From Simplicispira suum (GTDB lineage: Bacteria > Pseudomonadota > Gammaproteobacteria > Burkholderiales > Burkholderiaceae_C), in assembly GCF_003008595.1 (NCBI RefSeq), contig NZ_CP027669.1:1364001-1428000 (forward strand): 64,000 nucleotides of DNA, in the 5' to 3' direction. The notes below the pieces were generated by a model. That model was not told where the DNA came from. It worked only from the letters and a program-made list of their open reading frames with translations, and searched no databases. Below are positions 18,556 through 63,137 of the stretch, one piece after another. The stretch's first letter is position 1. Each line of letters starts with the position of its first letter. Made by a program: the position numbers and the translations under genes.

Positions 18556-18620
18556 TATGATTTTGATAGCTGCTAGCGCTTTATGGGTAAGCGCTAGAGG
18601 CCATTTTTACTAAAATTTTA
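18556..18620 (+). repeat. Dispersed hairpin repeat, copy D (between hutD and hutI)
   Basis: This is the clearest copy. TTTTGATAGCTG is followed by CTAGCGCTT-TATGGGT-AAGCGCTAG, a perfect 9-bp inverted repeat, and then AGGCCATTTTTACTAAAATTT in two parts. It lies in the 102-base gap inside the hut cluster. Confidence 0.85.
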
Positions 18621-59633: not shown

Positions 59634-60326
59634 TCACCCTCGCCGCAGCACAATGCCCGCAAACCGCGCCCCCAGCCGTTCCACCTGCCCGGCGGTCAGC
59701 GCCCAGGTGGCCACGCCCGGCGCGCGGCATTCCTGCAGCGCCCAGTGCGCCACGCCCGCATCGGCCAGCGTGTCGGCCAGGGCAAACAAATCATCCGTGC
59801 TGAACAGGCCCGCGTCCCAGGTGGTGCGGCATTCGTAGGCGACGCCGCTGGCGAGCAGGTGGCGCAGCGATTCGAAGGCTTTGGCACCGCTGCCGGGGGT
59901 GCGCGTGATGGCGTCGTAGGCGTGCAGCGGGCCTTTGATGTCCAGGCCCACCCAGTCGAGCAGCGGCAGCAGCGCGTGCAGGCGCTCGGGGTACATGCCG
60001 CCGGTGTGCAGCGCGGTTTGAAAGCCCAGGGCGCGCACCTCGGCCAGCGCGGCGGGCAAGCCGGCTTGCAGCGTGGGTTCGCCACCGGAGAAGACAACGC
60101 CGTCAAGCAGGCCCTGGCGGCTGTTGAGAAACGCCAGCACCTCGGGCCAGGGCACGGCAGCGGGGGTGGTAGCGTCCAGCAGTTCGGGGTTGTGGCAGTA
60201 GCCGCAGCGCCAGGGGCAACCCTGGCCATAGAGCACGGCAGCCAGGCGGCCGGGGAAGTCGATGCTGGTGAGCGGCGTCATGCCGCCCACGCGCAAGCGG
60301 GAGGCTGGGATGGGACTTGCGTTCAT
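59634..60326 (-). CDS. nrdG: Anaerobic ribonucleotide reductase activating protein
   Basis: NrdG is the radical SAM enzyme that installs the glycyl radical on NrdD. The 230-residue protein starts MNASPIPASRLRVGG and has the cluster motif CPWRCGYC in GQGCPWRCGYCHNPELL. The SAM-binding segments FSGGEPTLQ and LDIKGP follow. The frame is open upstream, but that part shows no family likeness. It lies downstream of the two nrdD parts on the same strand, separated by 367 bases, and needs oxygen-free conditions to work. Confidence 0.92.
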   Translation of the reverse strand: MNASPIPASRLRVGGMTPLTSIDFPGRLAAVLYGQGCPWRCGYCHNPELLDATTPAAVPWPEVLAFLNSRQGLLDGVVFSGGEPTLQAGLPAALAEVRALGFQTALHTGGMYPERLHALLPLLDWVGLDIKGPLHAYDAITRTPGSGAKAFESLRHLLASGVAYECRTTWDAGLFSTDDLFALADTLADAGVAHWALQECRAPGVATWALTAGQVERLGARFAGIVLRRG

Positions 60327-60693: not shown

Positions 60694-60870
60694 TTACTTC
60701 TCCTCGAAGAATTGGCGCTCCTGGTGCTCTCCCTGCTTACCGATGTTGAAACTGGCGACCGGACGGTGGTAGCCCATCACGCGGGTCCAGACTTCGCAGG
60801 GCTGGCGCTCGGCGTCGGTCAGTTGCACGTCGGACAGGGCCTGGTGTTCGGTGGTGGAAAAATGGCTCAT
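60694..60870 (-). CDS. nrdD: Glycyl-radical segment of anaerobic ribonucleotide reductase (separate gene)
   Basis: This short gene encodes 58 residues that match the very C-terminal end of class III ribonucleotide reductase. CEVWTRVMGYHRPV contains the RVxGY loop whose glycine carries the radical, and FNIGKQGEHQERQFF matches the FNxGKQxE end of NrdD. The start at 60870 has AAGGAGAA before it, and the protein ends in EEK. The nrdD core at 61044-63062 stops just after its zinc site and lacks this loop. The two proteins together are the length of a normal NrdD. Confidence 0.85.
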   Translation of the reverse strand: MSHFSTTEHQALSDVQLTDAERQPCEVWTRVMGYHRPVASFNIGKQGEHQERQFFEEK

Positions 60871-60964
60871 GGATGTTCTCCTTCAGGGTGAAAAGGGGGC
60901 ATGCCGCAGCCTGTGCTACGCCGCCCGGGGGCAACGGAGGGGCAAGGCTCCACCGTTGATTTAC

Positions 60965-61030
60965 TACTTGATTAATAGCTGCTTGCGCTTTATGGATAAG
61001 CGCTAGAGGCCAATTTGACTCATATTTTTT
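60965..61030 (+). repeat. Dispersed hairpin repeat, copy H (between the two nrdD parts)
   Basis: GATTAATAGCTGCTTGCGC, then TATGGATAAGCGCTAGAGGC and AATTTGACTCATATTTTTT match the consensus well. It occupies the gap at which nrdD is split. Confidence 0.85.
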
Positions 61031-61043
61031 GCGGTGATGCGTG

Positions 61044-63062
61044 TCACGCCGCCAGTGCGGCCCGCTTGGTCTGCAGGCGCTCTTCGTCGCAGGTGGGGCA
61101 GAACTTGTGCTCACCCGCCAGATAACCGTGCGTGGGGCAGATGGAGAACGTGGGCGTGACCGTGATGTAGGGCAAGCGAAAGCGCGTGAGCGAGCGTTTG
61201 ACGAGGTCGCGGCAGGCGGCGCCGCTCGACAGCCGCTCGCCCATGTACAGGTGCAGCACGGTGCCGCCGGTGTATTTGCTCTGCAGCACCTCCTGGCGCG
61301 CCAGGGCCTCGAAGGGGTCGTCCGTCCAGCCCACGGGCAGTTGCGAGGAGTTGGTGTAGTACGGCTTGTCCGCCGTGCCCGCCTGCACGATGGCGGGCCA
61401 GCGCTTTTTATCCTCTTTGGCAAAGCGGTAGGTGGTGCCTTCGGCGGGGGTGGCCTCCAGGTTGTAGAGGTGGCCGGTTTCTTCCTGGAACTGCGTCATG
61501 CGCTCGCGCACATGGTCGAGCAGGCGCACGGCAAACTGGTGGCCGCGCTCGCTGGTGATGTCGTGCGCGTCGCCGGTGAAGTTGCGCACCATCTCGTTGA
61601 TGCCGTTCACGCCCAACGTGCTGAAGTGGTTGCGCAGCGTGCCCAGGTAGCGCTTGGTGTACGGAAACAGGCCCTGGTCCATGAGCCGCTGAATGAGCTT
61701 GCGCTTGGTCTCCAGGCTCTGCTTGCCCAATTCGAGCAGGCGGTCGAGCGCGGCCAGCAGTGCGGGCTCGTTGCCTGCATGCAGATAGCCCAGCCGCGCG
61801 CAGTTGATGGTGACCACGCCCAGGCTGCCGGTCTGCTCGGCGCTGCCAAACAGGCCGTTGCCGCGCTTCAAAAGCTCGCGCAAGTCGAGCTGCAGGCGGC
61901 AGCACATCGAGCGCACCATGTTGGGCTCCAGCTCGGAGTTGATGAAGTTCTGGAAGTACGGCAGGCCGTACTTGGCCGTCATTTCAAACAGCAACTGTGC
62001 GTTCTCGCTCTCCCACGGAAAATCCTTGGTGATGTTGTAGGTGGGAATCGGAAAGGTGAACACGCGGCCCTTGGCGTCGCCCGTGGTCATGACGTCGATG
62101 TAGGCGCGGTTGATGAGGTCCATCTCGGCCTGCAGCTCGCCGTAGCAAAACGGCATTTCCTTGCCCGCAATCACCGGCACCTGCTCGCGCAGGTCGTCGG
62201 GGCAGATCCAGTCGAAGGTGAGGTTGGTGAACGGCGTCTGCGTGCCCCAGCGCGACGGCACGTTGAGGTTGTAGACCAGCTCCTGAATGCACTGGCGCAC
62301 GCTGGCGTAATCCATGGCATCCACCCGCACATAGGGCGCCATGTAGGTGTCGAACGATGAGAACGCCTGCGCACCGGCCCATTCATTTTGCAGCGTGCCC
62401 AGAAAATTCACGATCTGCCCCACGGCGGAACTCATGTGCTTGGGTGGCCCCGCCTCGACCTTGCCGGGCACGCCGTTCAGGCCTTCGTTCAAAAGCGTGC
62501 GCAGCGACCAGCCCGCGCAATAGCCGCTGAGCATGTCGAGGTCGTGGATGTGGATGTCGCCACTGCGGTGCGCCTCGCCAATCTCGGGCGTGTAGACATG
62601 CGAGAGCCAGTAGTTGGCCGTGACCTTGCCCGCCACGTTCAGGATCAGGCCGCCGAGCGAGTAGCCCTGGTTGGCGTTGGCGTTCACGCGCCAGTCGGCG
62701 CGGGTGAGGTACTCGTTGATGGAGCTTTCCACGTTCACCAGCGTCTGGTGGTCGGCACGCAGGGTGGCGTGGCGGTCTCGGTAGGCGATGTAGGCGCGCG
62801 CCGTGGCCAGGTGGTTGGCGGCGATCAGGGTCTGCTCGACCACGTCCTGGATCTGCTCGATGCCTGGCGCCTCGCCATGGAAGCGGTGGATCAGCACCTT
62901 GCCCACCTGTGCAGCCAACAGGGCGGCTTCGTCGACCGCAAATTCGCCGGTGGCGGCACCTGCGCGCTCGATGGCCGAGCGGATCTTGCGGGCGTCAAAA
63001 GGGGCGCGCTCTGCGCTGCGCTTGATGACCTCGCGGGGCAAGGTGGCGACTGTGGCTTCCAT
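61044..63062 (-). CDS. nrdD: Anaerobic ribonucleoside-triphosphate reductase, catalytic core
   Basis: NrdD makes deoxyribonucleotides without oxygen. The 672-residue protein begins with an ATP-cone (VIKRSAERAPFDARKIRSAIERAG, about residues 12-100) for allosteric control. The barrel follows, with GDIHIHDLDM, PSRWGTQTPFTNLTFDW and the cysteine region RSMCCRLQLDLREL. Its end holds the zinc site CPTHGYLAGEHKFCPTC and stops at RAALAA, before the glycyl-radical loop, which a separate 58-codon gene supplies. The start at 63062 follows a leader with two NrdR-like boxes. Confidence 0.94.
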   Translation of the reverse strand: MEATVATLPREVIKRSAERAPFDARKIRSAIERAGAATGEFAVDEAALLAAQVGKVLIHRFHGEAPGIEQIQDVVEQTLIAANHLATARAYIAYRDRHATLRADHQTLVNVESSINEYLTRADWRVNANANQGYSLGGLILNVAGKVTANYWLSHVYTPEIGEAHRSGDIHIHDLDMLSGYCAGWSLRTLLNEGLNGVPGKVEAGPPKHMSSAVGQIVNFLGTLQNEWAGAQAFSSFDTYMAPYVRVDAMDYASVRQCIQELVYNLNVPSRWGTQTPFTNLTFDWICPDDLREQVPVIAGKEMPFCYGELQAEMDLINRAYIDVMTTGDAKGRVFTFPIPTYNITKDFPWESENAQLLFEMTAKYGLPYFQNFINSELEPNMVRSMCCRLQLDLRELLKRGNGLFGSAEQTGSLGVVTINCARLGYLHAGNEPALLAALDRLLELGKQSLETKRKLIQRLMDQGLFPYTKRYLGTLRNHFSTLGVNGINEMVRNFTGDAHDITSERGHQFAVRLLDHVRERMTQFQEETGHLYNLEATPAEGTTYRFAKEDKKRWPAIVQAGTADKPYYTNSSQLPVGWTDDPFEALARQEVLQSKYTGGTVLHLYMGERLSSGAACRDLVKRSLTRFRLPYITVTPTFSICPTHGYLAGEHKFCPTCDEERLQTKRAALAA

Positions 63063-63090: not shown

Positions 63091-63137
63091 ACACTACCTA
63101 TAGCTGTGTATTTGATTTCAAACACTATAGATAGTTA
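63091..63137. promoter_or_regulatory. Tandem NrdR-like boxes upstream of nrdD
   Basis: ACACTATAGATAGTTA (63122-63137) matches the NrdR box ACACWATATATWGWGT at 13 of 16 positions. A weaker box ACACTACCTATAG starts at 63091. The 31-base distance is three helix turns, as usual for paired NrdR boxes. NrdR represses reductase genes when dATP is plentiful. Confidence 0.65.

Follow-up and report, generated by a model that had tools for sequence, protein, structure and literature searches.

The window, 64,000 nt of the Simplicispira suum contig NZ_CP027669.1 (forward-strand positions 1,364,001 to 1,428,000), carries on its minus strand a locus for an anaerobic, class III ribonucleotide reductase (RNR) in the order nrdD core, 58-aa open reading frame (ORF) and nrdG. 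The core (672 aa; 61044..63062, or 21 aa longer if translated from the alternative GTG at 63125) comprises an ATP-cone (residues 11-99, PF03477) and the NRDD barrel (residues 129-662). It scored 1123.8 bits against NF006126 (cut-off 548) and 581.7 bits against Pfam NRDD (PF13597), covering positions 2-531 of the 562 in the profile. Both NCBIfam and Pfam assign the core to NrdD and not to the catalytic chain of a B12-dependent NrdJ, and its domains are those of class III, but the RVxGY glycyl-radical loop is absent from this chain. The loop, CEVWTRVMGYHRP, is encoded by the separate 58-aa ORF (60694..60870, minus strand), which matches PF13597 at positions 530-562 (31.0 bits, cut-off 26.2) and places the predicted radical glycine at Gly33 (codon 60772-60774). 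NRDD was the sole Pfam match of this small protein at E-values up to 1, and the radical domain of pyruvate formate-lyase (PFL) did not match. This split had been proposed in an earlier reading of the window from its letters (the sequence-only reading), and the two ORFs, the 173 nt between them and the ribosome-binding site were all found where that reading had put them.

Near its C terminus the core carries the motif CPTHGYLAGEHKFCPTC (61089..61139, minus strand; residues 642-658, position counted by hand), whose residues are putative zinc ligands by comparison with NrdD structures, and 14 residues remain after it. The sequence-only reading was right that the core ends after this site but wrong in giving it four cysteines, as the motif consists of three cysteines and one histidine (C, H, C, C). 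An extra cysteine is located on the small chain, ahead of the radical loop. The core translation also contains an SCCR-type finger-loop motif, MVRSMCCRLQLD, in a region matching ASCCRLTS of Thermotoga maritima NrdD, the finger cysteines of which (C329 and C330) are reported to be required. The gap from the core stop to the small-gene ATG (60871..61043) harbors the Shine-Dalgarno sequence AAGGAG (60878..60883, minus strand) and, as noted earlier, a copy of a 36-base dispersed repeat (60976-61011, no mismatches to the pattern); another copy with one mismatch is located at 18567-18602. Directly downstream of the pair, nrdG (59634..60326, minus strand, ATG at 60326) encodes a 230-aa radical S-adenosylmethionine activase of the NrdG2 type (TIGR02495, 187.9 bits, cut-off 131.15).

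PF13597 matched two ORFs of the source genome (three contigs, 100% complete by the tool used), namely the core and the small one, and a search with the small protein gave one match. The third, intact nrdD that would have overturned the sequence-only reading was not found in this search. No chain in this genome contains both the core and the glycine, and the small chain must therefore be obligatory there. Its other reductases are NrdA, of class Ia, and an NrdJ-like protein of class II. An assembly break, which had been suggested as the first thing to check, was rejected because a 100% identical small protein (residues 1-58) occurs in another genome of the genus (G1291) and because the split is widespread.

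Distribution and arrangement of the split gene

We searched genomes of the same family, order and phylum, in samples that overlap. NrdD matches were obtained in 32 of 200 family genomes, and 30 of the 32 had a truncated core together with a small match; the others had an intact E. coli-type gene (G126) and a weak fragment (G003). Of the 300 genomes sampled from the order, 95 gave a match, the source genome included. The survey of Burkholderiales called for by the sequence-only reading gave 76 split cases out of these 95 by hand count, of which 71 have a core ending at profile positions 525-540 and at least two matches per genome (the small row is shown in 48 of the 71, among the matches listed), and five have a stop between core and small segment in one frame. 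The rest were nine high-scoring single-chain forms (five of this subtype in one family and four of the E. coli type), eight of another type, one partial and one weak. Five of the 76 split genomes also carry an intact NrdD of a different type. G126 and several genomes of the order were rejected as carriers of an intact form of this subtype, as they carry the E. coli-type NrdD with RVCGY. In the phylum, 57 of 398 genomes matched and 13 were split, with L254 and L257 checked by reading.

Plasmids also carry the split gene (28 records with a match, 12 examined). Annotation shows a core coding sequence (CDS), a small CDS and nrdG in the plasmid records of Cupriavidus necator H16 (pHG1), Bradyrhizobium, Sulfuricurvum, Aquabacterium, Azospira and Shinella, and a Thiothrix record lists the small gene and nrdG. 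The small ORF is present and unannotated in the records of C. metallidurans and Paracoccus, and the genes of Acidiphilium and Actinomyces are single-chain. On pHG1 the name nrdD is annotated on a 66-aa CDS; the split corrects such annotations, in which the short piece is named nrdD or omitted. In the C. metallidurans genome paper NrdDG is listed under the tags Rmet_5137 and Rmet_5139, and the tag between them may be the small gene. The paper, citing Siedow 1999, describes the H16 enzyme as essential for complete denitrification and as bypassed by B12. Allochromatium vinosum pALVIN01 (L037) has an orphan small radical gene; the 7 kb examined contain no core.

When the best 80 of more than 575 bacterial relatives were examined, a ranking that favours split forms, 77 had a core in the examined DNA, and in none did the core and the radical segment share an ORF. 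The distance from the core stop to the radical motif ranged from 43 to 2391 nt with a median of 119 (165 loci, some places being counted twice and the downstream side searched only). In 30 family loci we observed all three relative frames as well as one-base start-stop overlaps, and nearly every listed small start was preceded by a purine-rich, Shine-Dalgarno-like site, as judged by eye. The small gene lies 2.3 kb from the core in G263 and, together with nrdG, about 9 kb from it in G207; G353 was rejected as a further distant case owing to a contig break. Extra small genes were present in G452 (two) and G441 (one). The G441 copy adjoins tail-fibre-assembly and integrase genes and thus belongs to a prophage, and the G452 copies adjoin PHROG families of unknown function, one of them being 91% identical over 152 bp to the viral locus L231. 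Because the source genome lacks an intact NrdD, gap and frame are variable, small genes have Shine-Dalgarno sites of their own and distant or extra copies exist, the radical glycine must act in trans, in agreement with the sequence-only reading.

Small radical genes in phages and prophages

A scan of IMG/VR viral contigs yielded 158 relatives, of which the best 80 were examined. Neither a core nor NrdG was found in any of the 80 loci within the 4-12 kb examined, where the small gene stood alone. Whole viral records, possibly fragments, were searched for 30 of the 80, and each gave one NRDD match, the radical segment, and no core (30 of 30). Some of the viral small proteins are just 44 residues long, and the cysteine before the loop is kept in 76 of 80. 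In L180, L189, L212, L230 and L233 an in-frame CxxC or similar cysteine pair lies upstream, possibly as part of their own zinc site.

Comparison of ten viral contigs with PHROGs revealed tail, head, tape-measure or integrase genes nearby in six, families of unknown function only in two, and no match in two. The window's small protein itself matches phrog_4132, a phage family listed as of unknown function, for which a likely function is thereby provided. In the collection of annotated phages a single weak match was obtained (44% identity, E 2e-3), and the phage claim is therefore based on the IMG/VR contigs. A viral scan with the core returned seven relatives, four of them with a core: two intact, one split and one cut by the contig end. 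The split one, L365, is a 39 kb viral contig with the order core-nrdG-small.

A probable two-chain class III reductase and its alternatives

The pair very probably constitutes a two-polypeptide class III RNR. In this reading, NrdG activates a small radical subunit seated in the barrel of the core, the radical passes on to the core, and the subunit may be exchangeable. Allosteric and active sites reside on the core, along with the ATP-cone, the SCCR-type finger and most of a zinc site; the radical loop and the C-terminal tail reside on the 58-residue protein. Published NrdD structures place the zinc site and then the buried glycine loop in a mobile C-terminal radical domain, which has to move out of the core to reach NrdG (PMC11226230; PMC12662201); the two groups disagree on whether dATP disorders this domain. 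The small protein may occupy the place of that domain. We modelled L099 as a chain read through the stop, consisting of core, linker and small part (55 rows). The model, with a predicted local distance difference test score (pLDDT) of 78.9, a predicted template modelling score of 0.72 and scores of 69-91 for the blocks of residues 701-750, aligned end to end with the NrdDs of T. maritima and Prevotella copri, with the small part at the radical domain. The predicted placement supports docking of the small protein on the core. A search of solved structures with the small protein alone gave nothing credible. NrdG would charge the glycine of the small chain, from which the radical would pass to the finger cysteine of the core. 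With the oxygen-cuttable glycine on an inexpensive subunit of its own, exchange could mend damage, and phages could supply a small-subunit copy of their own.

Several points weigh against this interpretation. The fold model includes an artificial covalent link and was made from 55 rows, and models varied (pLDDT 68-79); known NrdD structures may have taught the prediction program, and the alignment ranges are those of the first and last residues only. The class Ia and class II reductases of the source genome could render the pair dispensable, one of the 30 family cores (G060) has an internal TAG, and the literature found contained no biochemistry showing a radical on the small chain.

The two genomic points would suit a decaying or dispensable nrdD whose work is done by the class Ia and class II enzymes, as would the 168 of 200 family genomes without an NrdD match. 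However, the pair is under purifying selection with an invariant glycine, nrdG is kept beside it, it is conserved across many families, and nrdDG is reported to be necessary in C. necator H16, so that we regard decay as very unlikely. It is likewise very improbable that a single chain is made across the gap by frameshifting, ribosome bypassing or stop read-through. Although some genomes have core and small segment in the same frame, separated by a single stop, the relative frame and the gap vary freely, with up to seven stops in the gap (L139), the small starts have their own Shine-Dalgarno-like sites, and small genes occur kilobases away or alone in phages. Recoding and pseudogene formation were rejected on the variation of gap and frame and on the purifying selection and invariant glycine, respectively.

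A core drawing on another radical source, with the small protein serving as a regulator or as a decoy for NrdG, has nothing direct in its favour, non-glycine radical enzymes being described in the PFL family (PMC11528403). This is highly improbable, since the small protein is exactly the segment that the core lacks, intact relatives hold the same loop in one chain, and the fold model puts the small protein at the radical-domain position. There is likewise a very slim chance that the small protein is merely a spare for oxygen-cleaved NrdD and not an obligatory subunit: stand-alone phage and prophage copies resemble spares, but the source genome has no chain with both core and glycine. The same fact qualifies the likeness to GrcA (YfiD) drawn in the sequence-only reading, which holds for the mechanism but not exactly, because GrcA backs up an intact enzyme of the PFL family, whereas the glycine in this system comes from the small chain alone. 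The GrcA-like case proper is represented by the orphan small genes of phages and prophages, which in phages may serve as spares.

Glycyl-radical enzymes have been described with the radical glycine and the active site in one chain. The two-chain enzyme shares the ATP-cone, ten-stranded barrel, finger cysteines, zinc motif, RVxGY loop and NrdG with the single-chain NrdDs of P. copri, Streptococcus thermophilus, T. maritima and phage T4, but its radical glycine is on a separate product, with the cut between the zinc motif and the glycine loop. The split class II enzyme NrdJa/NrdJb of Pseudomonas aeruginosa likewise has two obligatory reductase chains encoded in one operon; it differs in being a B12 enzyme whose NrdJb is described as serving re-reduction and not radical storage. 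Crona et al., 2015 state that NrdJa/NrdJb is the sole split RNR found outside viruses, and a 2022 survey mentions only the split class II. GrcA and Y06I of phage T4 are, as described, small autonomous glycyl-radical proteins acting in trans, one of them phage-encoded; in contrast, they are PFL homologues that rescue a damaged enzyme normally possessing its own glycine, and the likeness drawn is one of description. Phage nrdD and nrdA genes are also reported in pieces, sometimes functional, through introns, inteins and homing endonucleases, as in Aeh1 nrdA-a/b (PMC3653736), and Dwivedi, 2013 lists, for 128 phage genomes, six split nrdD genes, a count that takes in genes interrupted by introns and fragmented ones. 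Those splits involve mobile elements or the fragmentation of individual phage genes, whereas here there is no intron or intein, and the cut falls at the radical domain in many bacteria. The split RNRs described in the papers found are class II or viral, and full-text literature gave no account of a cellular class III reductase whose radical chain is separate, subscription papers being mostly outside reach and prior notice possible. With a natural two-chain enzyme one could test, as single-chain enzymes hardly allow, whether charging requires the radical domain to move out of the core, how the radical crosses from one chain to the other and whether exchange mends oxygen damage.

Recurrence of the split and the position of the cut

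In two further phyla, represented by metagenome-assembled genomes, many relatives are single-chain and several split forms differ in sequence; the 40 stretches were picked for broken-looking matches, so that no frequency can be derived from them. We built a tree from 107 cores (78 split and 29 single-chain), after dropping duplicates as well as L071 and L074, which had been misfiled as split. The split or single-chain label changes eight times by parsimony, at least four of these changes being forced by starred branches, with direction not inferred, and a single clade of split forms was rejected in an approximately unbiased (AU) test with a quick tree (p 0.00029). The single-chain forms of one Burkholderiales family nest inside the split clade. 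These may be re-fusions, and the same may apply to some of the apparently independent splits.

The position of the cut also differs. CxxC is retained by the core of 136 out of 137 loci sharing the window's type and by none of the 17 of the Verrucomicrobia type, a group defined by the sequence of its small chain; two additional loci fit but escaped the pattern. In the Verrucomicrobia type, the small chain starts with MAKCGEKTEV or alike, and the zinc CxxC is therefore cut between its cysteines. A broader picture is conceivable, although we lean slightly against it as a whole: many bacteria would possess a dissociable small glycyl-radical subunit that is charged by NrdG off the core and swapped after oxygen damage, phages and prophages would carry a copy to keep or seize host deoxynucleoside triphosphate synthesis without a reductase, and the division would have arisen more than once, with one group sharing the zinc site between the chains.

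Other variations were seen at the C terminus of NrdD. L341-L343 have long, charged, helix-like extensions on the core tail and on the N terminus of the small chain, which by eye could pair as a coiled coil. In L300-L319, from the phylum of G889, a single-chain NrdD is followed in frame by a C-terminal domain that we named thioredoxin-like by eye, perhaps a built-in reductant, and the NrdD-like ORFs of L275, L276 and L278 have a different C-terminal extension.
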